Origin: Haloarcula mannanilytica
Lineage (GTDB): Archaea > Halobacteriota > Halobacteria > Halobacteriales > Haloarculaceae
NCBI RefSeq assembly: GCF_005406125.1
Contig: NZ_BIXZ01000001.1
Location: forward strand, 1,116,001-1,180,000
Reading direction: 5' to 3'
DNA: 64,000 bases
Below are positions 21,534 to 58,723 of the stretch, one piece after another. Position 1 is the stretch's first letter. Each line of letters opens with the position of its first letter. A program made the position numbers and the translations under genes. A model generated the notes under the pieces. The model was not told the DNA's origin, searched no databases, and saw only the letters and a program-made list of their open reading frames with translations.

Positions 21534-21551
21534 AGAAGCGAAGTTGAAAAA

Positions 21552-29560: not shown

Positions 29561-29700
29561 GTGGGCGAAAGTGAGCAGATTGCCGCTTTCTGAACTGAAT
29601 CTGGCCGTATAGCGGCTGTACCACATGAAAAGGCGTGGGCGAATACGTGGGCGAATGTGAGCGAAAGGACTGCCGTCTGGTGATTTCAGTTGTGGGCGAA
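29561..29700 (+). repeat. Four GTGGGCGAA repeats at the orc1 3' end
   Basis: The 9-mer GTGGGCGAA occurs at 29561-29569, 29635-29643, 29647-29655 and 29692-29700, all in the same orientation; the last copy overlaps the orc1 stop region. Two degenerate GTGAGCRAA-like copies lie at 29571 and 29657. Clustered direct repeats next to an initiator gene are the expected form of a plasmid replication origin (iterons or origin recognition boxes). Isolated copies elsewhere in the element (near 33492, and inverted near 28962) show the 9-mer alone is not diagnostic. Confidence 0.5.
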
Positions 29701-30696: not shown

Positions 30697-30948
30697 GGTG
30701 TGGTAGATGGATGCCGGGATTCGATGAAAAGAGCGCGCCATCCGGAGTGAAAGTGAAAGTGGGTCTGTCTGTGGCATATTGAGAATAAAATCAGAAAGTA
30801 CTGTGGCTGAACGCTTACCCTGTTAGAGTTGATCGACAGATCCAACATCACACTGAAAGAGAAACTAAGCAGCCAACTCCACAGTATTACGCCCGTTTCA
30901 TATCAACAGGGCGAAGTTTTACTTATCTATCGTTTAAATTGACATATC
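30697..30948. other. Intergenic region upstream of orc1 with interlaced inverted repeats
   Basis: No gene. Inverted pairs: TACTGTGG (30799-30806) with CCACAGTA (30879-30886), CCCTGTT (30818-30824) with AACAGGG (30905-30911), and GTTGATC (30828-30834) with GATCCAAC (30839-30846). The region separates orc1 from the divergent lipoprotein gene, so it must hold both promoters and may hold the replication origin. A TTTAAATT element near 30933 lies just before the lipoprotein ATG. Confidence 0.45.
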
Positions 30949-34214: not shown

Positions 34215-34216
34215 GA

Positions 34217-34953: not shown

Positions 34954-35041
34954 AGAATTGGTCAGAACCGTTGACGAAAGAAATCAAAATTGATTATAGC
35001 ACCCAACACTTATACCTCAGGTTAATGATTTTGATATAGAA

Positions 35042-37528: not shown

Positions 37529-38125
37529 ATGCGAATCGAAGCCACCGAAGGGAACGAACACAAGGTCTGGCTCACCGACAGCGAGATCGAGGACCTCCGC
37601 CGAGCGACGAACAGCCAGCGCGACGACCTCATCATCCAACTGGGCGCGTTCGTCGGCCTGCGCGCCTTCGAGATTCCACAGGTCCGTCCCGTCGACGTGA
37701 AAGCCACCGACAGCGACCAGTACCGCCTCCGAGTCCGCGCCGGGAAGGACACCAGCGGCAACGGCGGGAAGCCGCGCGATGCCTACCTCCCCGATAGCGT
37801 CGAGCGCGACCTCCAGCGCTACCAGAACGAGCACAACATCGCGCCGAAAGACCCCTTTATCGATTTGAAACAGCCCGGTGTTCGCGCGGTCGTCCGTCGC
37901 ACTGCTGCCCGAGCTGCCGAGGCGACCGGCGACGCCGACTTTGAGAAGGTAAGCACGCACGATCTCCGCCGCCGGTTCGCCCAGCGCCTCCTGGTCGACG
38001 AACAGATGAACCCGCGTGTGGTGATGGCTGTCGGCGGCTGGGACAGTTTCGCCGCCATCGAGCCCTATCTGAACGCCCCGAGCGAGGACGTGATCGACGA
38101 CGCGTTCGAGAAAGTCGGGTTGTAA
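37529..38125 (+). CDS. Catalytic-domain-only tyrosine recombinase
   Basis: 198 residues, about half the length of the element integrase and lacking the N-terminal core-binding domain. Catalytic residues are all present: Arg45 (GLRAFEIPQ), Lys73 (AGKD), His144 and Arg147 (THDLRRRFAQ), Trp171 replacing the usual GH (VGGWDSF) and Tyr180 (PYL). Short recombinases of this type occur in haloarchaeal plasmids and pleolipovirus-like elements. Three related palindromic sites extend leftwards from its start, so cassette capture or site-specific resolution is a plausible job. Confidence 0.85.
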   Translation: MRIEATEGNEHKVWLTDSEIEDLRRATNSQRDDLIIQLGAFVGLRAFEIPQVRPVDVKATDSDQYRLRVRAGKDTSGNGGKPRDAYLPDSVERDLQRYQNEHNIAPKDPFIDLKQPGVRAVVRRTAARAAEATGDADFEKVSTHDLRRRFAQRLLVDEQMNPRVVMAVGGWDSFAAIEPYLNAPSEDVIDDAFEKVGL

Positions 38126-40624: not shown

Positions 40625-40804
40625 ATGACGACTAACCGATCCGGTGGGCGGAATCCGCCGGATAGCGCGGGCGAGACCGCGCATCGACCGTATCGAATCG
40701 ACTGGCATAACCTCGACGAGCGCCGCCGCGAGCGAGCCCGGCACGAAGCCGCCGGTGCGAGCCGCGATCTCCCTGCCAGGGAACTGGTCGGAGGTGGCGC
40801 GTGA
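40625..40804 (+). CDS. Small basic protein heading the operon (59 aa)
   Basis: 59 residues: MTTNRSGGRNPPDSAGETAH then a basic helix (NLDERRRERARHEAAGASRD). Unusually arginine-rich for a haloarchaeon, so nucleic-acid binding is likely. The stop overlaps the next GTG start. Confidence 0.5.
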   Translation: MTTNRSGGRNPPDSAGETAHRPYRIDWHNLDERRRERARHEAAGASRDLPARELVGGGA

Positions 40805-41424
40805 GTCCAGAATCCGATGGCTTCATCGCCGTCGATGGTGCTCGCCGATCCGACCTCTCGGTAAAGGGGTGGTTCGGTGTCGGTGCTGCTGTGACCGGGA
40901 TCGGGCTCGCAGGCTGGACGCTCATGTCTTGGGCAGTCGCTGGCGGCGAAGTCCTTCCAGGGCTGGCCGCAGGCCTCGGGGCTGTGCTCCTCGGCGGCGC
41001 TGTCGCCTACGAGAGTGCCACGCCGGAGGCTGACGGAGTCTGCGACCACTGCGGCGAGCGCGTGGTCACTCACTCCAGTCGTGCCGGCTACGACGAGGAC
41101 ATCATCGTCCATTGCAGTTCAGACCCGCGCCGTGGGCGACTGGGTCCGATCTCTGCGGTGCTCCAGCGTCGGGGAGCGGAGTTCCTCTACTGCTCGGGAG
41201 CATGTGCCGAGGCCGATGCTGAACGGCGTCGGATGACGTTCCCGTCGAGAGGCGACACAGAGACAGCAGCCAGCCGGCTCGCAGCGACCGACGGCGACGG
41301 CCGAACCCGTCGCCAGCAACTCGTCGACGCCATCGACGAACATGGCAGCGGCGCGGTCCGCGACGACATGCTTCTGAACGAACTCGAAACCACGGGTAGC
41401 GACCGGAACCGCTCTCAGAACTGA
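40801..41424 (+). CDS. Membrane-anchored zinc-ribbon protein (207 aa)
   Basis: 207 residues with a GTG start. Two hydrophobic helices at about 25-70 (FGVGAAVTGIGLAGWTLMSW; LPGLAAGLGAVLLGGAVAY), then CDHCGERVV and a later FLYCSGACAEAD that complete a zinc site, and an acidic C-terminus. Similar in layout to the HhH protein on the other strand, but without HhH motifs. Early gene of the 13-kb operon. Confidence 0.62.
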   Translation: MSPESDGFIAVDGARRSDLSVKGWFGVGAAVTGIGLAGWTLMSWAVAGGEVLPGLAAGLGAVLLGGAVAYESATPEADGVCDHCGERVVTHSSRAGYDEDIIVHCSSDPRRGRLGPISAVLQRRGAEFLYCSGACAEADAERRRMTFPSRGDTETAASRLAATDGDGRTRRQQLVDAIDEHGSGAVRDDMLLNELETTGSDRNRSQN

Positions 41425-41482
41425 TGTACGCACATCCATTCGAACGGCAGTACAGTACGCAACTATCCACGCGGAGGGCAGC

Positions 41483-42943
41483 ATGATTCGTGAGCGACTC
41501 GGCGGTCGAGCGTTCGCGATGCTGACGCTACTGACCGCACTCTTGGTCGCGACGACCGCGCCGGCGGCCGCGGCCGGACAGTCGCTCAACTGGAGCGCTG
41601 ACACCGCACCCCAGGCACAGACAGAGGTCGACGTGACCAAAGCCGTCCACAACATGGCCTGGGGCCAGTCGGCCGAGGCCGTCCGCACCTACGAGGGCGA
41701 TGATGGCTCGCTGACCGAAGTCGAGGCCGAGGTCAACACCTCCGCCCAGAACCCCTATACGTTCCACTACACCGAAGTCAACCACACCGACTACGGCGCG
41801 TTCCCGCACGACAAAAGCGACGTGTCGGCGATTGACGCCGGTGAGTGGACGAAGGACATGAGCGGCTCCGCCGGCACTGGTACGGTCGAGAACGTCGAGA
41901 CCGCGCCCGGTGTCGAGGGCGTTCGCATCTCAACGTCGTCCCAGTCCAGCGGTGACGCGGCGACGTTCACCTTCAGCAACTTCTCGGTGACGAGTGACGA
42001 AGACAAGCGCTTCGCACAGGCCGTCTACAACGCCAACAGCGCCGACTCGGGCGTCACCTACGAACTCCGATACGTCGACAGTGACGGCGACTACAAGACG
42101 GTCGTCTCGAACAGCACCGCCGTTGACGGCGTCGTCACCCAGGAGCAACTCGGCAACATCGCCACCGAGGGCTCGGGCGACGGCACGTTCGACGACATTC
42201 AGCAGCTCCAGATCGTCGTCTCCGATGCCGACGCCAGCCTGACATTCGTCGGGCTGAACGCCGAGAAGATGTCGCCGTACGACCTCGGCGACCAGCAGAA
42301 AGACACCGACGGTGACGGATCGCTCGAAACCGTCGATATCGGTGAGGACTACGCCGGCGGTGCAGTCTCGCTGAGGGCCCTGGACACGCTGGGCTCGTCG
42401 TTCTCCGACGCGCGCATCCACGATCTCACGGCCCCGATGGAGTTCACCGGCGAACTCGCGGGCAGTGAGGACGTGATGGTCGAGCGCACCGAAGACGAGT
42501 CCGTCGAGAGTGGGAACTACCCCGGCTACAAGGGAACGGCAACGGTCTACGTCCGGCTCTCGCTGCCTGACGCCTACGATCTTGCCTTCTCTGGGGCCGC
42601 GCTGACGGACACGCAGTCGGTTAACAGTGACCGGCTAATCTCCGTCGAGTACGCCGAAGGTGTCAGCGACACCGAGTTCGGCAACATCTCCGACGGGAGC
42701 TGGACGGATGTCACCGGCTCGTACTCCGGTGAAGGATCGAGCGTCACGGTCGACGACACGATCCAGGTCGGTCAGACCTCCGTGCTGAAGTACACGTACA
42801 AGCTCACGCCCGACCAGTTCGACAACATCGTCGCCCAGGGCGGTAGCGGTGGCAGCGGTGCGATGGGCGGGCTCGGCAACAACATCCCGCTGGTCGGTGG
42901 CATCATCGCCACGCTGGCGGCGTTCCTCAAGAGGCTCAGCTAA
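41483..42943 (+). CDS. Exported surface protein with C-terminal anchor (486 aa)
   Basis: Sec signal (FAMLTLLTALLVATTAPAAA, cleavage near residue 33), an ectodomain of about 420 residues rich in Ser, Thr, Asp and beta strands, a Gly/Ser hinge (GGSGGSGAMGGLG) and a terminal hydrophobic helix with a basic tail (GGIIATLAAFLKRLS). Signal, ectodomain and single C-terminal anchor is the architecture of pleolipovirus spike proteins, though I cannot show sequence homology. GGAGGG before the ATG is a strong ribosome binding site. Probably the exposed protein of a membrane particle or vesicle. Confidence 0.68.
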   Translation: MIRERLGGRAFAMLTLLTALLVATTAPAAAAGQSLNWSADTAPQAQTEVDVTKAVHNMAWGQSAEAVRTYEGDDGSLTEVEAEVNTSAQNPYTFHYTEVNHTDYGAFPHDKSDVSAIDAGEWTKDMSGSAGTGTVENVETAPGVEGVRISTSSQSSGDAATFTFSNFSVTSDEDKRFAQAVYNANSADSGVTYELRYVDSDGDYKTVVSNSTAVDGVVTQEQLGNIATEGSGDGTFDDIQQLQIVVSDADASLTFVGLNAEKMSPYDLGDQQKDTDGDGSLETVDIGEDYAGGAVSLRALDTLGSSFSDARIHDLTAPMEFTGELAGSEDVMVERTEDESVESGNYPGYKGTATVYVRLSLPDAYDLAFSGAALTDTQSVNSDRLISVEYAEGVSDTEFGNISDGSWTDVTGSYSGEGSSVTVDDTIQVGQTSVLKYTYKLTPDQFDNIVAQGGSGGSGAMGGLGNNIPLVGGIIATLAAFLKRLS

Positions 42944-42945
42944 CT

Positions 42946-43428
42946 ATGTCTGCGAGTTCGGGGGATAGTGGCCGTAGCGAGTACGGCTTCAGGCTGCTGA
43001 GTCGGACCAGCGGCATCATCAAAGAACAGGGCTGGCAGGGTCTCGGTAAGTCCGCGTTCGGGACGATCTTCCTCGCCATCATCTTCGGCGGGGTGGACCT
43101 CCTGAACGCGGTTCTGAATGTCCCAATCGCCATTCTGGATGCGCTGGGGTTCAGCGTCGCCGAACTCAACGTCGCCATCTTCGGCGGGCTCGCGAACTTC
43201 ATTGGCGGCGTCCTGAACGCGACCGGTGGCTCGTTCGGCAGCGGCTGGACAGCGCTGCTTGGGCCGTTCCAGGGACCACTCGGCGTGTTCGTGTTCCTCG
43301 TCATGCTGTGGGAGTTCATGTACTTCCTCGATGTCGTGGACACGGACATTTTCGGGCTGGTCATCGACCTGCCGGACTTCCTGTTCCAGTCAGACAGCAG
43401 CGGTGTCGACGGCGAGGACGACACGTAA
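42946..43428 (+). CDS. Small multi-spanning membrane protein (160 aa)
   Basis: 160 residues with about three to four hydrophobic segments (GTIFLAIIFGGVDLLNAVL, ALGFSVAELNVAIFGGLANFI, PLGVFVFLVMLWEFMYFLDVV) and an acidic tail. Two bases after the surface protein. One of at least five consecutive small membrane proteins. Confidence 0.65.
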   Translation: MSASSGDSGRSEYGFRLLSRTSGIIKEQGWQGLGKSAFGTIFLAIIFGGVDLLNAVLNVPIAILDALGFSVAELNVAIFGGLANFIGGVLNATGGSFGSGWTALLGPFQGPLGVFVFLVMLWEFMYFLDVVDTDIFGLVIDLPDFLFQSDSSGVDGEDDT

Positions 43429-43479
43429 CCATGCCCGCATCGGCCTGCTCGCACTCGACGATTCGTTACGGGGGTAACT

Positions 43480-43875
43480 ATGTCGGGTAGCGACAGCGAT
43501 ACCAAGCTCTACAATCTGGCCGATGAGAAGCGCGCAGAGATGTTGCGCGGGTGGCTGTCGGTGACCAACGACGACGGTCAGACAACGACCATCCGCTGGG
43601 GCAAACTCGCACTGCTGTCGCTGGGGAGCTGGCTGCTCACTGCGGCGGTTGGTCTCGCCGAGGTGCTCGGCGGAGCTGGCTCGGCGCTGCTGATGCTGAC
43701 CGACGGGTTCGGGTCGTTCTACGGCGACCTGTATCGCGCATACCTCGGGATCGTCGAGTCGATTTTCTCGTTCGGGGCCGCGGTCGCGTGGCTCGAACCG
43801 TTTGGCATCGGCGCTGGCCCGCTCGGTATCGCCATCGCACTGCTGGCGCTGTACCTGTGGGTGACCATCGAATGA
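43480..43875 (+). CDS. Small membrane protein (131 aa)
   Basis: 131 residues: a soluble N-terminus (LYNLADEKRAEMLRGWLSVTN) followed by three hydrophobic segments from residue 45 on. Size and topology recall the small internal membrane protein of pleolipoviruses (VP3), but no motif confirms this. The stop overlaps the next ATG (ATGA). Confidence 0.62.
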   Translation: MSGSDSDTKLYNLADEKRAEMLRGWLSVTNDDGQTTTIRWGKLALLSLGSWLLTAAVGLAEVLGGAGSALLMLTDGFGSFYGDLYRAYLGIVESIFSFGAAVAWLEPFGIGAGPLGIAIALLALYLWVTIE

Positions 43876-44339
43876 GTGAGGACCAGAGAGTGCCGGGGTT
43901 CGTCTGGCGACTGGCTCCGCTCGCTGGCGTTGTCGGATTTCTCACGTCGTTCGCTGAGGACCCGACCGGGACGCTTCGAGACATCATCCTCGATGTCGTG
44001 CTGTCGTTCGTCCTCGGCGGGATTCTCGACGTGCTGTCACAGTTAGTCGACCTGCTCCTCCAAGCGTTCGAGCAAGCGGCGAATGCGCCGGTCTTGGCTG
44101 CGCAAGGAATCCTCGATGCTGGTAGGGCTATCGGCGGCATCTTCATCGGCGGCATCGGAATCGTGGCCGATCTGGCTGGTGCACTCGTCGCTGCTGCTGG
44201 TCCGTTCGGCCCGATCATCATGTTCGGTCTTGCTGCTATAATCATCTACGTCCGCGTCGAGGTGGTCGCGATCCTCGTCGATTCGGTGGTCCCGCAGCTC
44301 GGAGACCTACTACGCTGGCTCAGGGGGATCGGCCGATGA
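43872..44339 (+). CDS. Small membrane protein (155 aa)
   Basis: 155 residues, three or four hydrophobic segments (LAPLAGVVGFLTSF, IILDVVLSFVLGGILDVL, IGGIFIGGIGIVADLAGALV, PIIMFGLAAIIIYV). Amphipathic in the centre. Overlaps both neighbours by four bases, so translation is coupled. Confidence 0.62.
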   Translation: MSEDQRVPGFVWRLAPLAGVVGFLTSFAEDPTGTLRDIILDVVLSFVLGGILDVLSQLVDLLLQAFEQAANAPVLAAQGILDAGRAIGGIFIGGIGIVADLAGALVAAAGPFGPIIMFGLAAIIIYVRVEVVAILVDSVVPQLGDLLRWLRGIGR

Positions 44340-44623
44340 GCGAGGACCGCGACCTCAGCTACTGGCTCACCCATCCGGCCGCTGCGACTGCAGCTGTCGC
44401 GACGGCATTGGTCGGCTCGGTCGACATGATTGAGCCGCTGCTGGCGTTCCTGACCGCGACCGTAACGACGTGGTTTCCGCTGCTATCGACGCTCCGCTCA
44501 GTCGCGGGCGTCGTCCCGGCGCTCCCGACCGGACTGTTCGAGCAACTGTTCCTGATCGGTGCGCTGGCCTACGCGGGCATTCTCGCCGCCGATCTCATCA
44601 ACAACGCAACTGACGACTCATGA
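44336..44623 (+). CDS. Small membrane protein (95 aa)
   Basis: 95 residues with two or three hydrophobic segments and an initial charged stretch (MSEDRDLSYWLTHPAA). The first residues MSED repeat those of the preceding gene. Coupled to that gene by ATGA. Confidence 0.6.
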   Translation: MSEDRDLSYWLTHPAAATAAVATALVGSVDMIEPLLAFLTATVTTWFPLLSTLRSVAGVVPALPTGLFEQLFLIGALAYAGILAADLINNATDDS

Positions 44624-44684
44624 ACCAGACACATCGCACGAACGGACGTATCGCACACAAATACCGACGACAGGAGGGACAGCC

Positions 44685-45176
44685 GTGCCACTGAACCGAC
44701 TCGGCCCGGTTGGCACTGTCCTTGCTGTCGTCGCGGTCCTGGGCGGCCTGTGGGTCGTCCTGAACACATCGCTGGCGGCCGCTGTCGCCGGCCCAGTCGC
44801 CATGCTGACGGCGAACCTCCGGCTGGTCGCTGGGCTCGTCATCATCGGGCTCATCGGCTACTGGGCGCTCGACGAAGTCGAGGACGACGACGAGTTTACC
44901 GACGCGGTCGAGAAGACTGGTGAACGGGCGTCGACGGCCAGCCGCGGATTCATCAACACGACGACGGTCGTCCTCGGCACGGTCGCGACGATCCTGTTCG
45001 GGTTCGGTGACGCCCTGGTCGATGTGCTCGGTCAAGCACCGGCCTTCGCCGGGCAGTTCATCATCGGTATTCTGGGCATCGGTGGCGCATCGGGCCTGCT
45101 GTCGGTCGAAGTAATCGCCGTGCTGGCGGTGCTGGTCATCGTCGCAACGGGTGTCGCACGAGGGGCCGACGGATGA
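44685..45176 (+). CDS. Small membrane protein (163 aa)
   Basis: 163 residues starting at GTG 44685, seven bases after a GGAGGG ribosome binding site (44672-44678). Four hydrophobic segments in two pairs around a charged loop (DEVEDDDEFTDAVEKTGERA). The upstream open frame is not used because its composition is not coding-like. Confidence 0.62.
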   Translation: MPLNRLGPVGTVLAVVAVLGGLWVVLNTSLAAAVAGPVAMLTANLRLVAGLVIIGLIGYWALDEVEDDDEFTDAVEKTGERASTASRGFINTTTVVLGTVATILFGFGDALVDVLGQAPAFAGQFIIGILGIGGASGLLSVEVIAVLAVLVIVATGVARGADG

Positions 45177-45538
45177 CCTCATTCGAGACCCATCACGGCG
45201 CGGAGACAATCGTTCGCTGGCTCCGCGACCAGGTCGACGCGGCCGCCGTCGAAGCCGAAGCGCTGGCCGAGGCCGAGCCGGCAGACGCCGCTGCACGGCT
45301 GCTGTTCGGGCTCGTCGTCTCGCTGGGGGGCTACCTCCTGATTCAAGACGCGACGGCCGTGTCGGGGACGTTGGTTGTCTCCTACGCACTCGCGGGCCGA
45401 GCCGCAGCGACAGTCGTCGGCCTGCTGGCGCTTCGAGTTGGTGCGCCGCGAGTGCTGTCGGGGCTCAGGACGGTCAAGAAAGTCCGCGCCGGTGAGTACA
45501 CTGACGCCGACGCCAGCGCGGAGGAGGCGAGCGCATAA
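45173..45538 (+). CDS. Small membrane protein (121 aa)
   Basis: 121 residues. An amphipathic alanine- and glutamate-rich helix (about 18-42), two hydrophobic segments (43-90) and a charged tail (RVGAPRVLSGLRTVKKVRAGE). Overlaps both neighbouring genes by 1-4 bases. Confidence 0.6.
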   Translation: MTSFETHHGAETIVRWLRDQVDAAAVEAEALAEAEPADAAARLLFGLVVSLGGYLLIQDATAVSGTLVVSYALAGRAAATVVGLLALRVGAPRVLSGLRTVKKVRAGEYTDADASAEEASA

Positions 45539-47298
45539 TGCGGCGCGCGCTCGTCGGGTTGCTGGTCGTTCTGGCTCTTGTCCCGGCGGTTCTCGGGGCG
45601 GCTGGCGGGCAGTCACTCGCGACGACTTCGACGGAGAACATGACCGTCGGCGAGCTGGCTGAAGGCGGTCAGCAGATCGACGGCGCGGATCCGTCCCGTC
45701 GCTGGCTCGGCGAGCGCGGGTCCGTGTATATGAGCTATCAGGAGACGAACCTCGTCAAGCAGATGGGCGCGCAGCAGCCCAACTGGGCGGTCGACAAGGT
45801 CGTCAGCCCGGACAAGACGGTCGATACGAACGAGGTGACGATGCATTTCAACCGGCCGTCAACGGGTGGCGAGGAGACGATTCACGTTGTCGTCCTCTCG
45901 TGGAACGTCGAGGAGCGTGAGGTGACGGAGGGCAACACGACGACCACGGAGACCGTCGCGACGAACGTCCGGCGGCAGACGACCGAGGTAACCCTCTCAA
46001 ACGCGTTCGAGACGGCGACCGTCTCGCTGCCGGATACCGAAGAACCCCAGCGAATCACCATGTTCGTACAGGAGTATCCGTCGGCTCGCTGGACGTTCCC
46101 GCACGACCCGGTCGCGCTTTCTGATACTGTGCCGTTCGGACAGTCCTGGGGCGCGTACCTCTCGTGGTTCAGCACGCGGTTCCTGCTGATTACCGCGATT
46201 GGTGTGCCGGTCGCCATCGCTGGCGCGTACAAGACCCTGGACTACACCTATACGGGGCCGGGCAAAGGCGTCGTCTGGTGGCTCATCGCGCTGGGACTGT
46301 GTTCGTATCTCGCGCTGTACTTCAGCCATCGGTCGGTCGCCTTGCTGCTGACGAGCGCGCCGTGGGTGATGGGCGTGTTCGTCGACGTGATCGCCTATGT
46401 CGCCACGCTCGAACTCGCCGATCCAACGGAGGAAGCGCGGTTCGAGAGTATCGTCACGACGGACGCCCAGAACCCGCTCGGTGACGATCTCCCCGACATC
46501 TCCGAGGAGTGGGCCGAGCACCTGCATTACGTCCAGCGCGATGACGGGCTTGCGCTGGTCAAACCCTCGCTGACGTACTTCGTGACGCTGCTGGCCGGCG
46601 CGAAGCCGCCGACACTGTCACTGACCGATCTCCAGACGCGAGTCAAAAGTCGCGGCTCCTCGCCTGAGGACGAGAAGTTCTACGGAAGCGAACCCGAGGG
46701 AGACGAGGACATCGAGGCCGATCCGGAGCTGGTCTACATCCAGTGGCCGGCACTCCAGTTCGGTCCCGACGGCCTCCGTCGGCAGGTTGAGCAGGTCGGC
46801 CTTCCCGGCGACGACGGCGTCGAAGAGGGTGAGGAACGCACAGTCACCACCAACGAGTGGGACCGCGACCGACTCACCCGTGCAGGTCTGTTCGGCCTGC
46901 TGACGGGTGCGGCCGCGAACGTCGCACTCGGCGGCGTCGGGATGGGCATCCTCGGATTCACCGTCGGGATGTTCGCGGCCACCGTCCGGCGCGTCGACGG
47001 GACCGCTTCGTTCGACCCGGCACCGGCCCATGCGACCGCCGCGAAAGCGCGTGTCGTCACGGAACAGCAGGAACTCGCCATCGCCGAGACGTTCGAGGAA
47101 CTCCAGCAGAAGATGGCCGAAGCCGACGCGACGACGACAGAACAGGCCGTCGATATTGCCGAAGCCTACATCGGCCAACTGCGGGGCCAGATCGACCGGC
47201 TCATCGGTGGCGACGACGCCGGTGGGCTGCCAGAGCAGTCCGAGCCATCCGTCGAGATGGACACGCCGGCGACCGATGCGGGGGTGAGCGACGATTAG
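45538..47298 (+). CDS. Large membrane protein with export signal and coiled-coil tail (586 aa)
   Basis: Signal peptide (LVGLLVVLALVPAVLGAAGGQ), an extracellular beta-rich domain to about residue 195, three transmembrane segments at about 215-290, a soluble middle domain (about 300-445), one more hydrophobic hairpin (about 447-485) and a C-terminal helix (LAIAETFEELQQKMAEADAT) that could form a coiled coil. This looks like a central scaffold of a membrane complex. The next frame opens inside its stop codon region without an ordinary start codon. Confidence 0.65.
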   Translation: MRRALVGLLVVLALVPAVLGAAGGQSLATTSTENMTVGELAEGGQQIDGADPSRRWLGERGSVYMSYQETNLVKQMGAQQPNWAVDKVVSPDKTVDTNEVTMHFNRPSTGGEETIHVVVLSWNVEEREVTEGNTTTTETVATNVRRQTTEVTLSNAFETATVSLPDTEEPQRITMFVQEYPSARWTFPHDPVALSDTVPFGQSWGAYLSWFSTRFLLITAIGVPVAIAGAYKTLDYTYTGPGKGVVWWLIALGLCSYLALYFSHRSVALLLTSAPWVMGVFVDVIAYVATLELADPTEEARFESIVTTDAQNPLGDDLPDISEEWAEHLHYVQRDDGLALVKPSLTYFVTLLAGAKPPTLSLTDLQTRVKSRGSSPEDEKFYGSEPEGDEDIEADPELVYIQWPALQFGPDGLRRQVEQVGLPGDDGVEEGEERTVTTNEWDRDRLTRAGLFGLLTGAAANVALGGVGMGILGFTVGMFAATVRRVDGTASFDPAPAHATAAKARVVTEQQELAIAETFEELQQKMAEADATTTEQAVDIAEAYIGQLRGQIDRLIGGDDAGGLPEQSEPSVEMDTPATDAGVSDD

Positions 47299-48037
47299 CA
47301 GTACTCCCTCCCCAACCTCTGTCGAGCCGGCGCTGGATGATCTCACGCGCAAACAGGACGACCTGTTCGAGCGCCTCCACGACGGCTTCGAGAGTCGCCA
47401 GGAGATCCTCCTGTGGTGTCACGACGCCAGCCTCCGGACGCTCGGCCAGCTCCCCGACGGCTGGTTCGCCGACCTCTTCGCGACCCGATACCGGCTGACC
47501 GCGCTGCTGGCCGACAGCAACCAGCGTGAAGCGGCCTCGGAAGCCGTCGCACCCGAAGACCGTGCCGCGGTCGAGCGGGCAGTGCTGGCCGACGACTCGC
47601 TGGTCGAGGCGTGTCGCGCCGGCATGACCGTCCTCGCACGGTCCTCGTCTGAGTACACCGGCGAGGCGGTCGATACCTCGAAACAATCCTATCTCGCGAT
47701 GCGCCCGGCAGTCGACGATCTCGCCGACCGGCAGCGCGAGGTACTGGAACGCCCGCTCGGCTTCGGGCAGCCACTGGGCTCGCGGGCAGACGTTCGCGAG
47801 TGGGTGCGCTCGGTGATCCGGGCGACGAAAGGCCACGACCAGGGCGCGACCGAGAAGTTCCTCTGGTCGCCCCATCGGCTGGACGCACTTCGTGGCGATC
47901 CCTCGTCGGCGACACTCCACCTGATGCTGGCCGATGACCTCCTGCGGCCGATGAACGCCGCACTCCGACAGACCGCGGCAGCAGCGACTGAACAGGCAGA
48001 CGAAGACACGACGACGCACACTCCCTTCAGAACATGA
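47294..48037 (+). CDS. Hypothetical protein with unusual start (about 247 aa)
   Basis: The frame is protein-like from about 47294 (ISSTPSPTSVEPALDDLTRK) to the stop at 48037, yet has no ATG, GTG or TTG before GTG 47582, which lies 95 codons inside the good coding stretch. ATT at 47294 overlaps the TAG of the preceding gene in the way other genes of this operon overlap (start codon sharing bases with the stop). A +1 shift at GAT-TAG-C fusing it to the 586-residue protein is the alternative. The protein is helical and acidic, without motifs. Followed by the ATPase gene with an ATGA overlap. Confidence 0.6.
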   Translation: MSSTPSPTSVEPALDDLTRKQDDLFERLHDGFESRQEILLWCHDASLRTLGQLPDGWFADLFATRYRLTALLADSNQREAASEAVAPEDRAAVERAVLADDSLVEACRAGMTVLARSSSEYTGEAVDTSKQSYLAMRPAVDDLADRQREVLERPLGFGQPLGSRADVREWVRSVIRATKGHDQGATEKFLWSPHRLDALRGDPSSATLHLMLADDLLRPMNAALRQTAAAATEQADEDTTTHTPFRT

Positions 48038-49428
48038 GTAAATCCGCACAGAAACGACGCGAGAAAGGCAAACAGGACGTTCTCGACATGCTCCACGCCG
48101 ACTTCAAGGCGTGGACGAAGAGCCGGCAAGCACTCCACCACAGCGACGACGAGGAGAAGTCCTACGACCGGCTCGGCAAGTACCGCAACGATGGCGAACA
48201 CATCTACCAGCAGTTCGTCTGGGACGATGGCACCCACATGAAGCCGATGCACAAGGTGCTGGCTTCGCTCACCCGGACAGCACGCCGCTACGGGATCGAG
48301 GAAGCACATCCAGTGTATCGGCATCCGGAGGCGTACCTGAACGCCCTACTGCATCTCGACGACAGCGAAAAGTGGGCGCTGGAGGACGGTCGGCTGGATG
48401 ATCCGATCATCGCCAATGCGCCGCCCACGCGCCGGAAGGTGCTGCGATGGCTCGCCCAGGAGGAGAACTCACACGTCCTGAGCGCGATGGGTGACGGCGG
48501 CACGGAGATCTGGGCGCACTCCGAGCCCGGCGAGGGTAAGACCTCGTTCGCGAACGTCATCGGCGGCGTCCGGATGCCCGAGGTCAACAACGAGACAGTC
48601 CTCTGGCCGCTGACGCTCGACGAGCTGGAGTGTCTGCCGCTGGCTCCGTGGATGCAGGTCGCGGTTCCCGAGGGCATCGAGTACGTCGTCGAGGCCAAGC
48701 CACGGAACCCGTCGCTGCCGGCAGTCGAGATCGAGCTAACCGACGTGTTCCGCTCGACGCTGACCTACTCGTCACCGCGGGACCTCATGCAGCAGATCGT
48801 GCCGGGCGGGCTCTACGCCATCCTGCCGGACCCGCTGTTCCGCGGGTGCGAGAAACTCTGTCGGGCGGCGTTCAACCCGGCTCGTGAGGTCGAGGAACCG
48901 GCCGAAGTGACGCCGCTCCGAGACAACATCTTCGCGCTGCTGGAGTCCCGTGCGAAAGACGACGAGTTCCTGCATCCGACGGTCATCATCGCCGACGAGT
49001 TCGGCGACCTCGTGCCGCTGAATCCGGAGAACGACGAGTCTGACACGAACACGAAAGTGAAGGGCTACCCGGTGGCGCTCGGCAAGGCCCGGAAAAAGAA
49101 CCTCTCGGTCATCTCGCTGTCGCACTCTATCGCCCGCGTTGACGAAGGTGTCAGGGAGAAAAACCGCTGGTTCGCGACGATGCCGAACACGCCGGCCCCG
49201 AGTCAGTCGCTCTCGGGCATCGGGAACGTCCCGGTCGACACGAACTACACGGGCAAACGGGACTTCTCGACCGGCGAAGCCGTGGTCTGGCGCAACCAGA
49301 ACTTCGCTGATATCTCCTGGCCGAATCCGTACCGGCGGCTCCGTCTCGGCGAGGACGAAGGCTATCAGTTCCGTGGGGAAATCAGTATCCGCTACCCCCG
49401 ACGAGAGGAGGCGATTCATGCCCTGTAA
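48034..49428 (+). CDS. P-loop ATPase of FtsK/HerA/VirD4 type
   Basis: 464 residues. Walker A HSEPGEGKTSFANVIGG (about 163-179) and Walker B HPTVIIADEFGDLVPL (about 314-329), with a following ISLSHSIARVDEG sensor-like stretch. The N-terminal 150 residues are a separate helical domain. In this setting, beside membrane proteins and a surface protein, such an ATPase would translocate DNA or protein: a packaging or coupling enzyme. No relaxase is visible, so conjugation by a classical mechanism is not supported. Confidence 0.72.
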   Translation: MSKSAQKRREKGKQDVLDMLHADFKAWTKSRQALHHSDDEEKSYDRLGKYRNDGEHIYQQFVWDDGTHMKPMHKVLASLTRTARRYGIEEAHPVYRHPEAYLNALLHLDDSEKWALEDGRLDDPIIANAPPTRRKVLRWLAQEENSHVLSAMGDGGTEIWAHSEPGEGKTSFANVIGGVRMPEVNNETVLWPLTLDELECLPLAPWMQVAVPEGIEYVVEAKPRNPSLPAVEIELTDVFRSTLTYSSPRDLMQQIVPGGLYAILPDPLFRGCEKLCRAAFNPAREVEEPAEVTPLRDNIFALLESRAKDDEFLHPTVIIADEFGDLVPLNPENDESDTNTKVKGYPVALGKARKKNLSVISLSHSIARVDEGVREKNRWFATMPNTPAPSQSLSGIGNVPVDTNYTGKRDFSTGEAVVWRNQNFADISWPNPYRRLRLGEDEGYQFRGEISIRYPRREEAIHAL

Positions 49429-49583
49429 TCGCCCGATTACAGTCGGCTCAGCGGCTCAAGGCAGAAATGAGCACTATTTCAGAACTGGGGTCGACCAGAA
49501 TCCGCCGATAGCGGTTCGGAGCTGCCCACTCTCAGCACGCCCCCTACGCGCGCGGGTATTAAATGGACTGGAGGGGGGAGGGG

Positions 49584-52500
49584 GTGAGTTCGGTGCGTAA
49601 TCGTGCATTTGCCGCGCTGTTCGCGCTGCTGTTACTCGCGTCGCCAGCGACGACAGCACTGGGTGCTGGCGATGTCTCGTTCACCGGTGAAGTCAAGCTG
49701 TCTGGACAACCAGCATCCGATGGCACGACATTCTCTTACGACCTGACTGATCTGGACTCGGCCTCGACGCCGACAGTCGAGTTCACCGGCGAGACAGCGA
49801 CCGAATGGGATAACGAGACCTCGGCCGGCGTCAGTAGCGGGTCGAGTCTCGACCTGTCTGTCGCCGGCGATCAGGACCCGACCGGGCCGTCGGTGAATGG
49901 CGAGCCGGTCGTGGAGTTCACTGGGACTGAACAAACGACATCCTGGTCAGCGTCGGCGACCGGCGCGACCAGCGGCTCGACGAAATCGGTCTCGGTGCCT
50001 GGGAACGTCGACCCCGACGCCGAGACCGTCGAGTTCACCGGGACCGAGCAAACGACGGCTCGAACCGTCTCACAGTCGAACCTTGCGAACGGCGATTCGT
50101 TCAGTTACAGCGTCGGCGGGAATATCCCAGCAACGAACCCACAAGTGACGTTTACCGGAGATTCGACAACAGCCAGCGGGTCCGGTAGCGGGACCGGAAG
50201 CGGGTCGGTCGACGTTGGCGGGAATCTCCAACCGACCGACGAGAGCGTGTCGGTTACGGGAGACACGTCGACGACCTCTCAGACCCTGAGCGGGTCTATA
50301 CCCGCGGGAGGATCGGACTCAATCAGTCTAACGAGCAATCTCGACCCGAATGGCCCGTCGGCCAACGGCGAACCCACAATCCAAGTAACGGCGTCGAATT
50401 ACTCCCCCGGAGCGGCCTCGTGGAATTTCCCCAGCGATCAATACGATCCTAACACTCATGGGATACTAATTGATGTTAAAAAGAGTTCCATCGAGGAACT
50501 CAAACTGACCGGAGCGCCCAATCTGGAAGGGGCAACTGAGATTGAGGTCAGACGAGAAAGCGACGGCGATCTACTGACTAGCTATTCAGCGGACCCAAAC
50601 AACGGCAAAACAGTTACTATCCCGTGGGAGCAGGGCACCGGGGAATACGCGGTAGTGGTTCCGGATGCCACAAACACGGACTACCCCGTTCCATTAGAAG
50701 ATTTCTCGAATAACGAGGTATCGAACGCAGACGGAAACATCGTCGCCATTGGTGAGTACGTCGGGGGTTCGATAGCGAAGGGTGATCGAGCAAGCCTGCG
50801 GGTTTTTTCTGCTGTTGATTACGTCGAACCGCCGGGTTCGCCCACAATCAGCGCAAGTGACGGAACATCGGTAAGTTTCAGCAGTATGTCGAACGGAGAG
50901 ACGGTAACTAAAGAGTTCGACATCACCGAGTCAGCCACAAGTCTCAGCGTCAGTGCAAACAGTGGGCAGTACGATTTCACGTTAGATTACACGGAACGGA
51001 CCGCGACCGAGGACCCATCGATTGATATCGATGGAGACGGGACCGCTGAAGCCAGTTGGTCGGGGATATACTCGGCCGGGGCGTCGACAACCACCAAGTC
51101 CGTCGGCGGTCTCTCAGTCGGGGATAACAGCGTCTCGACTTCGACAACGAACGGCCCACAACCGGACTGGTCGCTGTCATGGACTGAGCGAACCGCAACC
51201 GAGGACCCGTCGATTGACTTGGACGGCGACGGGTCGACTGACGCCAGTTACACGGGCGTCCTGAAATCTGGCGAGACGCATACGGCGAGCGTCTCGGACC
51301 TCTCGACTGGCTCGCACACGGCCAGCGTCTCGACGGGCCACCAGGTCGACGTAGATATTGACATGACCGTGCGAACGGCCAGCGAGGACCCAGGCCTCGA
51401 CCTCGACGGCGACGGCGTCACTGATGCCAGCTATTCCGGCATCCTGCGCTCGGGCGAGACAGCGTCGGTCAGTGCCGAGACCCTGAGCGAGGGGTCGACG
51501 ACGCTCGAAACCTCGCTGACGGCTGGGTCTGTCGACTATACGGTCTCGGCGACTGGCCGCACCCACACCGAAGATCCGAGCGTCGATCTGGACGGCGACG
51601 GCTCAACCGAGGTTAGCCATTCGGGCATCATCTCGCCGGGGGCGACCGAGACGTACGAACTCGCCGACCTCTCGACCTCGACCAGCAGCGCGACGGTCTC
51701 GACGGCAGCTGGGACATCGGATGTGTCGTTCCGGTTCAAAGAGCGCCAGCGCTCGGTCGACCCGGCGATCATCATCAACGGGAACCGAGCGGGCTACACC
51801 GGAACACTCGACGACGGTCAGACGGTACAGGTCGACGGCTCCAGCTCGTGGCTGGCCTCGGGAGACAATACAGTTGAGGTCCGTGTCGGTGAGGGTGTCA
51901 GCAGCGACGCACCGAACCCGCAGGTCCAGATGGTCTACACCCACGACGCGACCGACCGGATCAACCAGACCTACACGGACGAAACATGGTCTGAGCGCTA
52001 CAACGTCGAGAAACAGTTCAATGCATCACAGAACGATGTCACAGTCGATCTGGACCACTCCAGCGAGATCGTCGCCGTCCGCTCGCTAGAGTATCGGACG
52101 AACGGCGGTTCGTGGCAGGAACTGACCAGCCAGGCCTACGAACTGAACGGGACGACTGTTCGGGCCGATATCGGCGATGTCCAGGCCGGCGACACGGTCG
52201 AAGTCCGCGATGCCGCCTCGAAGGTACAGGTCCACAACGGCGAGATCACCGTCGAGGAAACGACGGCTCCCGGTCAACGCCTCGATACGGCCATTCGAAT
52301 GGACTCGTGGAGTTCGGACAGCTACATCAAGGTCCGCAACAGCAGTGACCTCGTTCGCTACACCTACAACGAGTCCTGGTCAGCTCCCGACGAGTACGTG
52401 GAGATTTACGAGACTGGTGAACAGCGCCTCTACATGCCGGGCGCGTCGGGCGGCTCGCTCGCCCGCGTCTCGACTATCCCAGTAGAGGTTGACGCCGAGA

Positions 52501-53192
52501 CCGGCGGCGCGAGAGTCAGTGTCGAGGACCCGACCAGATCGGAACCGGAGTTCGTCGTCGATCCTGGTCCCGGCGGCTCGGGCGACACGGTCGCGTTCAC
52601 GTATCTGAACGCCCAAGACGACACGGACTACGTCCTCTGGTCGGCCACTGAGGAAATCGTCCGAGATTCGGGAACGGCGAACTCGCCCATCACACTGACT
52701 GACGACGACAGCGACGAGACGCTGGCGTTCCTGATCGACGACACCGGATCGAGTGGGCCGACCAACGAAACCGGCCCAACCAGTCTCGACGAACTCTCCG
52801 GTGCCGCACAGGGTGCGGTCGGGTCGACCTCGCTCGGTGATGTGGGTATCATCGTCGTGGTCGCGGTCGTCATCGCTGGCGCGTGGGTCATCTCTCGGCA
52901 GTTCGGCGACGCAAACCTGGGCTGGCAGACGCTGTTCGTCGCGGAGGCCGTCGTCGGCGGTGTGCTCGCCTTAGAGCTGCTGTCGCAGTATTCGCTGGCG
53001 GGCGGTATCGCGGTCGGTTTCGCCCGGTTCCTCGAAGGTGTCGGGCTCGGGTTGGCCGAGGCGATGCCGCTGGCACTGATCGTCGTGGGTGCACTCGGCT
53101 ATCTCGCCGTCCGTCGCTGGGGGCGTCCCCAGGTCGTCGTGAATCGGTCGTTCAGTCTTGGCGGCAGCGAACGAGGTGAAAACCGGAAGTAA
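49584..53192 (+). CDS. Giant repeat-containing surface protein with C-terminal membrane domain (1202 aa)
   Basis: Signal peptide (FAALFALLLLASPATTALGA). Residues about 30-260 consist of beta repeats with an FTG core (VEFTGTEQTT and variants). Five 61-64-residue repeats (DNA starts 50991, 51183, 51366, 51552, 51738) each contain RT.TEDPS-x-DxDGDG, an Asp-rich loop like calcium-binding loops; the fifth has lost the loop. Further beta domains follow, then three to four transmembrane helices (about 1090-1180) and a basic tail. GTG at 49584 follows a long GGAGGGGGGAGGGG ribosome binding site. An adhesin, fibre or spike of the particle is the likely role. Confidence 0.72.
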   Translation: MSSVRNRAFAALFALLLLASPATTALGAGDVSFTGEVKLSGQPASDGTTFSYDLTDLDSASTPTVEFTGETATEWDNETSAGVSSGSSLDLSVAGDQDPTGPSVNGEPVVEFTGTEQTTSWSASATGATSGSTKSVSVPGNVDPDAETVEFTGTEQTTARTVSQSNLANGDSFSYSVGGNIPATNPQVTFTGDSTTASGSGSGTGSGSVDVGGNLQPTDESVSVTGDTSTTSQTLSGSIPAGGSDSISLTSNLDPNGPSANGEPTIQVTASNYSPGAASWNFPSDQYDPNTHGILIDVKKSSIEELKLTGAPNLEGATEIEVRRESDGDLLTSYSADPNNGKTVTIPWEQGTGEYAVVVPDATNTDYPVPLEDFSNNEVSNADGNIVAIGEYVGGSIAKGDRASLRVFSAVDYVEPPGSPTISASDGTSVSFSSMSNGETVTKEFDITESATSLSVSANSGQYDFTLDYTERTATEDPSIDIDGDGTAEASWSGIYSAGASTTTKSVGGLSVGDNSVSTSTTNGPQPDWSLSWTERTATEDPSIDLDGDGSTDASYTGVLKSGETHTASVSDLSTGSHTASVSTGHQVDVDIDMTVRTASEDPGLDLDGDGVTDASYSGILRSGETASVSAETLSEGSTTLETSLTAGSVDYTVSATGRTHTEDPSVDLDGDGSTEVSHSGIISPGATETYELADLSTSTSSATVSTAAGTSDVSFRFKERQRSVDPAIIINGNRAGYTGTLDDGQTVQVDGSSSWLASGDNTVEVRVGEGVSSDAPNPQVQMVYTHDATDRINQTYTDETWSERYNVEKQFNASQNDVTVDLDHSSEIVAVRSLEYRTNGGSWQELTSQAYELNGTTVRADIGDVQAGDTVEVRDAASKVQVHNGEITVEETTAPGQRLDTAIRMDSWSSDSYIKVRNSSDLVRYTYNESWSAPDEYVEIYETGEQRLYMPGASGGSLARVSTIPVEVDAETGGARVSVEDPTRSEPEFVVDPGPGGSGDTVAFTYLNAQDDTDYVLWSATEEIVRDSGTANSPITLTDDDSDETLAFLIDDTGSSGPTNETGPTSLDELSGAAQGAVGSTSLGDVGIIVVVAVVIAGAWVISRQFGDANLGWQTLFVAEAVVGGVLALELLSQYSLAGGIAVGFARFLEGVGLGLAEAMPLALIVVGALGYLAVRRWGRPQVVVNRSFSLGGSERGENRK

Positions 53193-53479
53193 TGGTCGTC
53201 GCTGACCTCTTGCACTCGCTGGGTGTCAGCGGGTCCATCGTCACGATAGCTGTGGCGCTGGTCGGACTGAAACACGGGCGGGAGATTCTGGCGCTGTTCG
53301 GAACGCTGGGCCTCGCAGCTCGCGTTGCTGGCGTACTCCTGTTCGTGTTCGTTGTCGTCTCGTCTGGGCTGGTTCCGGGGCTTCAGATATCCGTCGATGC
53401 GAACCTCACAGTGTTGGGACGGCTGGTCGCAGATGGGTTCGATCTCGTGGCTGACGGGCTCCGGGTGGTCCTGCCATGA
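53192..53479 (+). CDS. Small membrane protein (95 aa)
   Basis: 95 residues, hydrophobic throughout (LHSLGVSGSIVTIAVALVGL, LGLAARVAGVLLFVFVVVSS, then an amphipathic C-terminal helix). Starts at the last base of the giant gene. Possibly a partner of its membrane domain. Confidence 0.6.
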   Translation: MVVADLLHSLGVSGSIVTIAVALVGLKHGREILALFGTLGLAARVAGVLLFVFVVVSSGLVPGLQISVDANLTVLGRLVADGFDLVADGLRVVLP

Positions 53480-53571
53480 GCAAGCTCGACGAGTCGACAC
53501 TGGTCGCCTGCGTGCGGTGCGCAGCCGAACAACGGCGGACGGGCTGGTGTCCAGCCTGCGGCCGTCGTTGA
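53476..53571 (+). CDS. Very small zinc-ribbon protein (31 aa)
   Basis: MSKLDESTLVACVRCAAEQR then TGWCPACGRR: two CxxC pairs in 31 residues. The ATG overlaps the TGA of the preceding gene (ATGA), which supports translation. Last gene of the operon that starts at 40625. Confidence 0.55.
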   Translation: MSKLDESTLVACVRCAAEQRRTGWCPACGRR

Positions 53572-53851: not shown

Positions 53852-54010
53852 ATGCCTCTCTGCCGGAGCCGTCTACCAGATGGGTCGGTCCACGTTGTGC
53901 TTACCGAGGAACCGGCCGTTGTTCACGATCCGGCGGTCCTTCCGCACCTCGCCATCGAGACCAGTCCAGTCGATGAGCGCGTTCTCGAAGCGCTCGGTCG
54001 GCACGGATGA
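53852..54010 (+). CDS. Possible small protein or antisense transcript (52 aa)
   Basis: 52 codons from ATG 53852, starting MPLCRSRLPDGSVHVVLTEE and ending EALGRHG. The correct promoter spacing for a leaderless gene is its only independent support. It overlaps the 3' end of the 553-residue gene by 138 bases in antisense, and GC-rich antisense frames often look coding, so an RNA without translation is equally likely. Confidence 0.3.
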   Translation: MPLCRSRLPDGSVHVVLTEEPAVVHDPAVLPHLAIETSPVDERVLEALGRHG

Positions 54011-55534
54011 ACCCTCCGCAGCATCGAGCCCCGAACGGAGTATCTTCAAGATCTCCTGCAAGCTGACCGGTCGCTTCAGCTCCATCTCCATCGGGTCCTG
54101 CGTCGAATGGACGACGATGCCGTGGCGGTTGGCCCATCGCTCCAGGGCGCTGGGATCGTCGTCCTCGCTACGGCGTGAGAACGGTGACGCACGTTCGGCG
54201 ACCCGCTCCAGTGCGTCCATCGTCGTGTCCTTCGCGGCCTGCCAGCGCTCGGCCACAGTCTCGATCTGGTCGCGAACGACGCCGTCGCGGAACTGGACCA
54301 TGCCGTTGTCGATCTCGATGATATCGGAGAACTTCTCGGCGGCGCGGTACACCGTTGAGGCCGACTTCCCGGCTTCCTCAGCGACATCCTGGTAGTGTCG
54401 CCCGCCACCGTCAGTCATCGCGACCAGCACGTCCCACTCACTCTCGGTGGTCTCCGGGCCACGGAGCTGGTCGACTGCATCGGCACGGGTCTGCTGTTCG
54501 AGATCGGGCATCGGGTTCGGATAGACCTCGACCGCGTCGTCGGCCTGTCCGGGCTCGAAGTACGGGTCCTCGATCCACACGTCCGAGTCCGGTGCGAAGT
54601 CGACGCCAGCCCAGTGCAACGCGTTCACGACGGTTTCCCGGAACTCGCCGACGGCGGACTCGTAGCCGGTCCACTGGATCGGTGACTCGCCGTCAGGGTA
54701 GTAGTCCGCCCAGTACTGACACTCGATCTTGTGGTGATACAGCGGATCGTCGCCGGTGTCCTCCGAACGGACCCATTTGGGCTGGTAGCACTTCAGGCGC
54801 TTCGCGAGCGACTGCTCGGGCAGGAGCCGCTGCCAGTTCTCAGGAGACAGCGATACAGCCTCGTAGTGGCCCTTGATATCTTCGTGGTCCCACTTGTGCT
54901 CGCCACGACCTCGACCGTTCGAGAACTGGGCGATGTGTTCGAGTACGCCGCCCTTGCCGGCGATACAGCCGGTTGCAGTCTCACGGTCGATCCGACCGTA
55001 GAGTTCCAACGCGTAGATCGACGACCACTCGTGAGGGCGCTGGAAGTACCCGCCGTCGATGCCGAGGTGTGACGCCAACGACTGGAGTAGTGCCAGCACC
55101 TCAAACTGCGAGAGGTTCGTCGATTCGACCTGAACGCGGATGGACTCAGGACACTCCGTCGGCATCCCGCCGATGAGATCGCCCGTGTCCTTGTTCTTCG
55201 CGTTGGGATAGCCTGGTCGGAACTTGAAATTCGCGCCCCTCTCGTTGTTCGGGTCGTCGGCAGCATAGGCGCTGATGCTGTACTCGTTCATGCCGCCGTC
55301 GAAGGTGGCCTGTGGCGGAGCTTCGAGCTGCCCTTCCCAGAACGAAGATTTCGTGATCTCCATCTGTTTACCCAGACAGGGGAACGTCTCGTCGTGCTCG
55401 TCCAGGTCGGGCTCGAACTGACTGACCATCGCCCAGTACGGTGATAGCTTGTCGTTGTCGAAGATGAGGTTCGCACCGATGCGGTGGGGCTGAAGGTCGA
55501 TGACCTCCTCGATGCTGGTCGAGGCTCGATTCAC
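53873..55534 (-). CDS. Large winged-helix protein of plasmid/virus type (553 aa)
   Basis: 553 residues. The N-terminal 340 residues have no known fold; they contain Trp-rich stretches (WDHEDIKGHYEAVSLSPENW, KWVRSEDTGDD). A winged helix follows at about 365-430 (EWDVLVAMTDGGGRHYQDVAEEAGKSASTVYRAAEKF), then a helical C-terminus. Such proteins are frequent on haloarchaeal plasmids and proviruses and could be a replication or partition protein, or a regulator. It is the last gene of the right-end operon. Confidence 0.62.
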   Translation of the reverse strand: MNRASTSIEEVIDLQPHRIGANLIFDNDKLSPYWAMVSQFEPDLDEHDETFPCLGKQMEITKSSFWEGQLEAPPQATFDGGMNEYSISAYAADDPNNERGANFKFRPGYPNAKNKDTGDLIGGMPTECPESIRVQVESTNLSQFEVLALLQSLASHLGIDGGYFQRPHEWSSIYALELYGRIDRETATGCIAGKGGVLEHIAQFSNGRGRGEHKWDHEDIKGHYEAVSLSPENWQRLLPEQSLAKRLKCYQPKWVRSEDTGDDPLYHHKIECQYWADYYPDGESPIQWTGYESAVGEFRETVVNALHWAGVDFAPDSDVWIEDPYFEPGQADDAVEVYPNPMPDLEQQTRADAVDQLRGPETTESEWDVLVAMTDGGGRHYQDVAEEAGKSASTVYRAAEKFSDIIEIDNGMVQFRDGVVRDQIETVAERWQAAKDTTMDALERVAERASPFSRRSEDDDPSALERWANRHGIVVHSTQDPMEMELKRPVSLQEILKILRSGLDAAEGSSVPTERFENALIDWTGLDGEVRKDRRIVNNGRFLGKHNVDRPIW

Positions 55535-58698: not shown

Positions 58699-58700
58699 AG

Positions 58701-58723
58701 TGGGCCGGCGCGAATTCGAATCG
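58701..58723 (+). repeat. Right attachment site (attR) in tRNA-Pro
   Basis: TGGGCCGGCGCGA (58701-58713) is identical to the left copy at 21552, and similarity continues through ATTCGAATCG of the T-arm. Direct repeats with one copy inside a tRNA 3' end define the limits of the element. Confidence 0.85.

Follow-up and report, generated by a model that had tools for sequence, protein, structure and literature searches.

We examined a 13-kb operon at positions 40625 to 53571 of a 64,000-nucleotide stretch of the Haloarcula mannanilytica genome (RefSeq assembly GCF_005406125.1, contig NZ_BIXZ01000001.1, positions 1,116,001 to 1,180,000 of the forward strand; hereafter the window, to which coordinates refer unless another record is named). 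The operon may best be read as a cassette for morphogenesis and DNA packaging that belongs to an integrated provirus from an uncharacterized family of membrane-containing haloarchaeal viruses known from genes alone, a reading that we consider somewhat likelier to be right than wrong. Within the open-licence literature, the membrane-wrapped particle that it would build, to carry the DNA of the element between cells, is most likely of a previously unrecognized kind. The main argument that the module makes the particle is that one structural module replaces another on a shared chassis of integration and replication genes.

An integrated element with a virus-type backbone

The operon lies within a 37.1-kb element (21.55 to 58.71 kb) integrated at the 3' end of a tRNA-Pro gene. 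A direct copy of the tRNA 3' end, forming the left attachment site (attL), was found ~65 bp from the stop codon of a 358-amino-acid (aa) tyrosine integrase; the chance expectation for a 13-mer common to the tRNA over the span was ~0.09. In three relatives (loci L100, L102, and L104), sequence that corresponds to the window immediately left of 21564 lies within ~0.2 kb after the tRNA, and the 37 kb is absent. Because the tRNA sites are uninterrupted in these relatives, the span from 21.55 to 58.71 kb is a single inserted element. The region is a discrete mobile element.

The backbone of this element is of virus type. The integrase, the Cdc6-like protein, the short integrase (E values in Table 1), and the DUF7845 replication initiator (Rep; E = 4e-23) are common to the element and LSV-48N (PP151251), a 24.9-kb lemon-shaped temperate virus of Haloferax (PMC12714723) that is similar in size to the element. 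Betapleolipoviruses use DUF7845 proteins, termed Rep-Arvir, as their rolling-circle initiators (PMC13107129), and a DUF7845 query matched 19 virus records, in 13 cases across 80% or more of the query. DUF7845 is common to other element classes too, so its presence is insufficient for pleolipovirus membership. Since the integrase, Cdc6, and Rep are shared with LSV-48N, and Rep with betapleolipoviruses, the cassette appears to fill the slot of the virion operon. The DUF7845 gene, which matters for this interpretation, falls just outside the region delimited by an initial annotation of this DNA that was made from the sequence alone.

Gene content and conservation of the cassette

All 15 plus-strand genes listed by the initial annotation were recovered, with neighbors mostly overlapping or a few bases apart. 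They include the two exported, anchored proteins that it described (B, and L with 1209 aa, or 1202 aa if started at an internal GTG), seven small multi-spanning proteins (C to H and M), a 586-residue membrane protein (I), a P-loop ATPase (K), and small zinc-ribbon proteins (A and a 31-aa open reading frame [ORF]). Signal-like N termini in B, I, and L and transmembrane segments in C to H and M were predicted by hydropathy only. Gene J has no in-frame ATG, GTG, or TTG before 47582 and overlaps the gene I stop codon as ATTAG; it probably starts at the ATT at 47294. The profile of gene C also retrieved D and E, and because the profiles of the three cross-match, these genes are probably paralogs. 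No module protein of the window matched a Pfam or PHROGs family significantly. Specifically, no match to terminase, portal, capsid, tail, relaxase, or type IV secretion system (T4SS) families was found among them, in line with the absence of such virus and relaxase genes noted initially.

The loci used for comparison were picked by K, which is therefore present by construction; the informative part is the surrounding genes. Across 20-kb stretches from 40 loci and two plasmids, B, the C/D/E family, F, G, (A), I, J, K, L, and M were found with order and strand largely kept, and the loci with conserved order came from at least nine genera. With iterated profiles, B was detected in 22 of the first 24 loci, I, J, and K each in 23, F in 20, and M in 19. 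When the window was compared with L037, its nearest relative, the ratio of nonsynonymous to synonymous substitution rates (dN/dS) was 0.17 to 0.42 in seven of eight genes and 0.70 in F. Because homologs are kept in order across loci and dN/dS is low, the cassette genes are judged to be real and under purifying selection.

Of 146 genomes of the family, 28, from 9 of 22 genera, have a homolog of K. At the level of the class, the K profile detected homologs in 77 of the 391 genomes sampled, from 26 of 86 genera, ~8 of the 77 being weak matches near E = 1e-4. Hosts identified in a single-protein scan include Haloarcula pellucida, H. rara, Halosimplex carlsbadense, Halobellus rarus, and Halorubrum kocurii. 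Since K occurs in only this fraction of genomes, the cassette is mobile and not core.

Consistent with mobility, candidate attachment repeats of 14 to 18 bp were found at five further loci, at tRNA genes for Pro, Lys, Ala, Met, and Cys, bounding elements of 22.9 to 36.4 kb as judged from the repeats alone; none was found at three others (G018, G022, and G012). Four of these five loci resemble the window in having an LSV-48N-type integrase at one end, pointing outward across the attachment site. Three of those four, and the window too, carry a DUF7845 gene in the opposite terminal block, oriented in the same direction as the integrase, so that circularization would join both into one unit. Such joining of integrase and Rep has been shown to control replication in SNJ2 (PMC13107129); a similar arrangement in the present elements is read from gene order by analogy. 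In the smallest elements bounded by attachment sites, the module accounts for roughly half of the DNA or more and is the sole candidate dissemination apparatus, and the recognizable backbone around it is the LSV-48N-type integrase, accompanied in most by the DUF7845 Rep.

Multiple copies of K were seen in one genome and on one plasmid. Four copies were found on one contig (G047 C1; 1210041, 1309780, 3250640, and 3293022), in two near-identical pairs, and because of these four copies several related elements are taken to coexist in that genome. On the 163-kb Halosegnis marinus plasmid (L003; NZ_CP119803.1), the module is accompanied by type B DNA polymerase (PolB) and Cdc6 genes, and two K copies lie ~115 kb apart. 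In a Salinigranum marinum plasmid, a lone gene I (L036, 14016 to 15413) is followed by PolB, with the other module genes absent, which suggests a remnant or a different use of I. Among the loci inspected, no terminal overlaps that would prove circular contigs were found.

CRISPR targeting of the module

When module DNA was searched in 142 genomes of the family, many short background matches were obtained, and seven short matches were inspected. Five of these were outside clustered regularly interspaced short palindromic repeat (CRISPR) arrays. The other two, both on one contig (G085, contig C12), lay between repeats spaced 63 to 68 bp apart, in two arrays. One spacer matched gene I (protospacer 46567 to 46601) with 2 mismatches in 35 and the other gene K (48817 to 48851) with 4 mismatches in 35, each with a TTC protospacer-adjacent motif (PAM) on the 5' side. 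TTC is the haloarchaeal type I-B PAM. These two spacers, a small number from a single genome and possibly acquired from an element other than that of the window, suggest an invader carrying this module.

The targeting of module genes also bears on the possibility that the cassette is a host-beneficial surface machine, for adhesion, exclusion, or antagonism, carried by mobile elements as cargo and not as their transfer apparatus. The two surface proteins and the variable giant adhesin would suit such a role, and it is the scenario that the initial annotation had named as contradicting its own view, in the form of S-layer or secretion-system homology in the core genome; no S-layer or secretion-system homology of the module was found, and the module is not core. 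However, a cargo role would leave the smallest elements with no other candidate transfer apparatus although the module takes up so much of their DNA. The module further includes a predicted DNA-pump ATPase. With CRISPR arrays aimed at the module as well, we consider a surface machine very improbable.

Predicted folds of K and B and variation of L

The initial annotation's P-loop ATPase could be placed further. Across the family alignment of K, K169 (Walker A) and D321 and E322 (the DE of Walker B) are invariant. The structural model (predicted local distance difference test [pLDDT] score, 83) matched HerA (E = 3e-6), the STIV2 packaging ATPase B204 (E = 1.5e-5), and TrwK/VirB4 in Foldseek, with template-modeling scores of 0.59 to 0.64 to B204 when normalized by target length. 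By its Walker motifs and predicted fold, K belongs to the HerA/FtsK superfamily. The family phrog_22963, whose source virus could not be traced, matched 12 of 16 K proteins (E = 1.9e-18).

The model of B (pLDDT, 84) consists of beta domains and a C-terminal helix. Local matches of ~150 to 180 columns were obtained to the HFTV1 turret, tailspikes, and carbohydrate-binding modules (CBMs), none good over the whole chain, and no pleolipovirus spike was present among the 50 PDB matches listed. A BFVD search with B returned only generic tail or adhesin domains of bacteriophages, as did tblastn with an L protein (locus L055).

Conservation across the L family is uneven: the majority residue accounts for 15 to 36% at residues 101 to 700 and for 43 to 57% at residues 701 to 1100. 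The N-terminal part has swapped domains, and single members carry a lactonase-type propeller or a CBM-like domain. A variable N-terminal region with swapped domains is typical of a recognition protein, and L may thus bind a receptor. At nine or so loci (L041 to L043, L046 to L048, L050, L054, and L056), L is replaced by shorter exported proteins (~570 to 940 aa) with one C-terminal transmembrane segment after a glycine/proline-rich stretch resembling the tail of B. Some members of the gene I family contain PKD domains.

Table 1. Coordinates of the cassette genes and other features of the integrated element
Feature	Coordinates	Strand	Basis
attL, 14-bp direct copy of tRNA-Pro 3' end	21551..21564		Repeat search
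Tyrosine integrase, 358 aa, LSV-48N CDS30 homolog (E = 8e-115)	21629..22705	-	Protein comparison
PolB, 703 aa	25402..27513	-	Homolog adjoins module in Halosegnis marinus plasmid
Cdc6/Orc1-like protein, 363 aa, LSV-48N CDS6 homolog (E = 3e-90)	29686..30777	-	Protein comparison
Short tyrosine integrase, 198 aa, LSV-48N CDS25 homolog (E = 8e-8)	37529..38125	+	Protein comparison
59-aa protein	40625..40804	+	Homologs in 12 loci; pNG300 copy 57% identical
A, 207 aa, zinc ribbon and transmembrane segment	40801..41424	+	Homologs in 11 loci
B, 486 aa, exported and beta-rich, with a hydrophobic helix at the C terminus; candidate main surface protein	41483..42943	+	22 loci; model
C, 160 aa, ~3 transmembrane segments	42946..43428	+	Profile and hydropathy
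D, 131 aa, ~2 transmembrane segments	43480..43875	+	Profile and hydropathy
E, 155 aa, multi-spanning	43872..44339	+	Profile
F, 95 aa, ~2 transmembrane segments	44336..44623	+	20 loci
G, ~164 aa, multi-spanning, start uncertain	44682..45176	+	20 loci
H, 121 aa, ~2 transmembrane segments	45173..45538	+	Hydropathy and profile
I, 586 aa, exported N-terminal domain, 4-5 transmembrane segments, cytoplasmic domain; candidate membrane scaffold or gate	45538..47298	+	23 loci
J, ~247 aa, soluble, probable ATT start	47294..48037	+	Profile; start-codon inspection
K, 464 aa, HerA/FtsK-type ATPase; candidate DNA packaging or translocation motor	48034..49428	+	Motifs; model
L, 1209 aa, exported, three C-terminal transmembrane segments; candidate receptor-binding protein	49563..53192	+	Hydropathy; profile conservation
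M, 95 aa, 2 transmembrane segments, usually adjoining L	53192..53479	+	19 loci
31-aa zinc-ribbon ORF	53476..53571	+	Homologs in 8 loci
DUF7845 (Rep-Arvir) replication initiator, convergent with module	53873..55534	-	Pfam, E = 9e-86
attR, inside 3' end of tRNA-Pro (58700-58773, minus strand)	58700..58713		tRNA and repeat search

Elsewhere in the element, an adenine methylase is encoded, and a low-G+C island (32097 to 37143; 0.44 to 0.50 versus ~0.63) contains a transposase gene and four genes annotated without function. No PADLOC match was found in this island, which is probably recent cargo.

Comparison with known viruses and plasmids

The initial annotation placed the operon among membrane particles, vesicles, or DNA-transfer machines, with pleolipoviruses and the plasmid pR1SE as precedents. 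The class is supported, and the two precedents failed as homologs. The link found instead is the integration and replication backbone of LSV-48N together with the betapleolipovirus Rep.

The structural genes of LSV-48N were rejected as homologs, as hhalign comparison with the module profiles gave none: LSV-48N has no sequence homolog of B, C to G, I, J, K, or M, and its large exported protein CDS12, which has three C-terminal transmembrane segments, resembles L in architecture only. Pleolipoviridae (HRPV-1, HRPV-3, HRPV-6, HGPV-1, HHPV-1, and His2) likewise have a single operon that encodes an ATPase and small membrane proteins along with an exported surface protein, and in HRPV-3 and HGPV-1 the structural operon faces the Rep gene, as it does here; the cassette differs in having several more membrane proteins and the giant L. 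Profile comparison gave nothing convincing: B against six pleolipovirus spikes reached P = 2.3 over 9 columns, and no module profile exceeded P = 27 against VP3, ORF6, ORF7, or the VP8-type ATPase, the highest value being that of K and the pleolipovirus ATPase over 109 columns of P-loop fold. Small proteins with two or three transmembrane segments also occur in SSV1 (Fuselloviridae) and His1, and the C792 protein of SSV1 is a large exported protein with C-terminal transmembrane segments followed by a small membrane protein. Homology to either virus was rejected by hhalign, the likeness being one of architecture, and the cassette differs in possessing a HerA/FtsK-type pump.

A cassette of this composition could also serve a plasmid or integrative element that spreads, as pR1SE does, in self-encoded membrane vesicles but by means of unrelated proteins, with no regular virion. 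The membrane-rich content and the HerA/VirB4-like ATPase on haloarchaeal mobile elements resemble the logic of pR1SE and related apHPV plasmids, whose ORF25 is likewise VirB4/HerA/STIV2-like (PMC10818511), and the module occurs on plasmids of 39.5 to 163 kb. However, no core protein proved homologous when the module was compared by hhalign with 23 proteins of pHTUR05, used as a pR1SE-type proxy (best P = 65 over 19 transmembrane-like columns), and the S8-protease motif was absent from loci L074 to L093 and five others. The follow-up paper on pR1SE gives a different core gene set (PMC10818511). Moreover, integrated module elements measure 23 to 37 kb, below the 44 to 271 kb of apHPV plasmids (PMC10818511), and their backbone is that of isolated viruses. 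We therefore regard vesicle spread as unlikely.

Contact-dependent DNA transfer is another reading. The element would then be a conjugation-like integrative element in which a pore or pilus is built from C to H, cells are bridged by B and L, K serves as the DNA pump, and the DUF7845 Rep also acts as a relaxase. Rep_trans-type MobT relaxases exist, and K resembles the VirB4 protein TrwK as well as HerA. Some DUF7845 proteins have been reported in integrative and conjugative elements (PMC13107129), and haloarchaeal elements with the fusogen Fsx1, which has three C-terminal transmembrane helices, carry HerA/VirB4/VirD4 genes (PMC9259645). In contrast, no Pfam match to a relaxase or to VirB4, VirD4, VirB6-like, or other T4SS domains was found in module proteins or among K and I family members, and most loci have a single pump ATPase. 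L, considered as a fusexin (Fsx1) for its three C-terminal transmembrane segments, had no match to solved fusexins in PDB, and the HAP2/Fsx1 family had no match above the cutoff in 20 module genomes. Contact-dependent transfer thus seems quite unlikely.

Several observations count against the provirus interpretation. HerA/FtsK ATPases serve conjugation too. The combination of a signal with three C-terminal transmembrane segments in L recurs in SSV1 C792 and LSV-48N CDS12, which speaks for the interpretation, but the likeness to C792 is one of architecture only (hhalign P < 1). No structural gene showed detectable homology to known virion proteins, and no relative was found by IMG/VR scans with K and B or by INPHARED tblastn with K, I, and B. 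The cassette is also present on larger plasmids, namely the 163-kb plasmid of Halosegnis marinus and a 100-kb plasmid of Haloarcula taiwanensis. Finally, K-like ATPases occur without the module on pNG100 (L005, 12472 to 14019) and pNG400 (NC_006392, 18012 to 19499).

Such module-free ATPases were found at two further loci (L124 and L125). pNG100 and pNG400 share a cell with pNG300 (NC_006391; Haloarcula marismortui ATCC 43049), a circular 39.5-kb plasmid that carries the 59-aa gene, A, small transmembrane proteins, I, J, K, and L (1327 aa; E = 7e-224), with a 100-aa gene at the position of M. Unlike the element in the window, pNG300 is extrachromosomal, has an extra 649-aa protein between J and K, and has no detected B homolog. 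It is speculative that K-bearing, module-free plasmids are satellites packaged by a helper.

Proposed life cycle and significance

If the provirus interpretation is correct, the integrase would excise the element from the tRNA gene, circularization would join the integrase block to the DUF7845 Rep block, as in SNJ2, and the circle would replicate. With the operon expressed, C to H and M would load a patch of the cell membrane, in which B would be the general surface protein and L a host-recognition protein held by its three transmembrane helices. I and J would provide a gate or scaffold in the membrane where K, as a HerA/FtsK-type pump, would load DNA, and particles would exit without lysis and attach via L. 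The analysis shows the boundaries, gene content, conservation, and mobility of the element, its CRISPR targeting and shared backbone, and the predicted folds of B and K; we infer that particles form, that K packages the DNA, that L binds a receptor, and that exit is nonlytic.

We tentatively propose, with a little less than even confidence, that these elements constitute a new family of temperate, membrane-containing viruses of haloarchaea and possibly represent a new virion type. The family would be present in about one-fifth of haloarchaeal genomes, be absent from the virus databases searched, and swap its virion module with those of lemon-shaped and pleomorphic viruses on one integration and replication chassis. 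If so, a large class of elements in haloarchaea, so far represented only by hypothetical proteins, would be virus-like, and three or more unrelated particle modules would share a single chassis in which the integrase is split from the Rep-Arvir block until excision. The exchange of modules among viruses and plasmids would then become directly testable, and pNG300 in H. marismortui ATCC 43049, in which most of the cassette is present, would offer a laboratory-accessible model.

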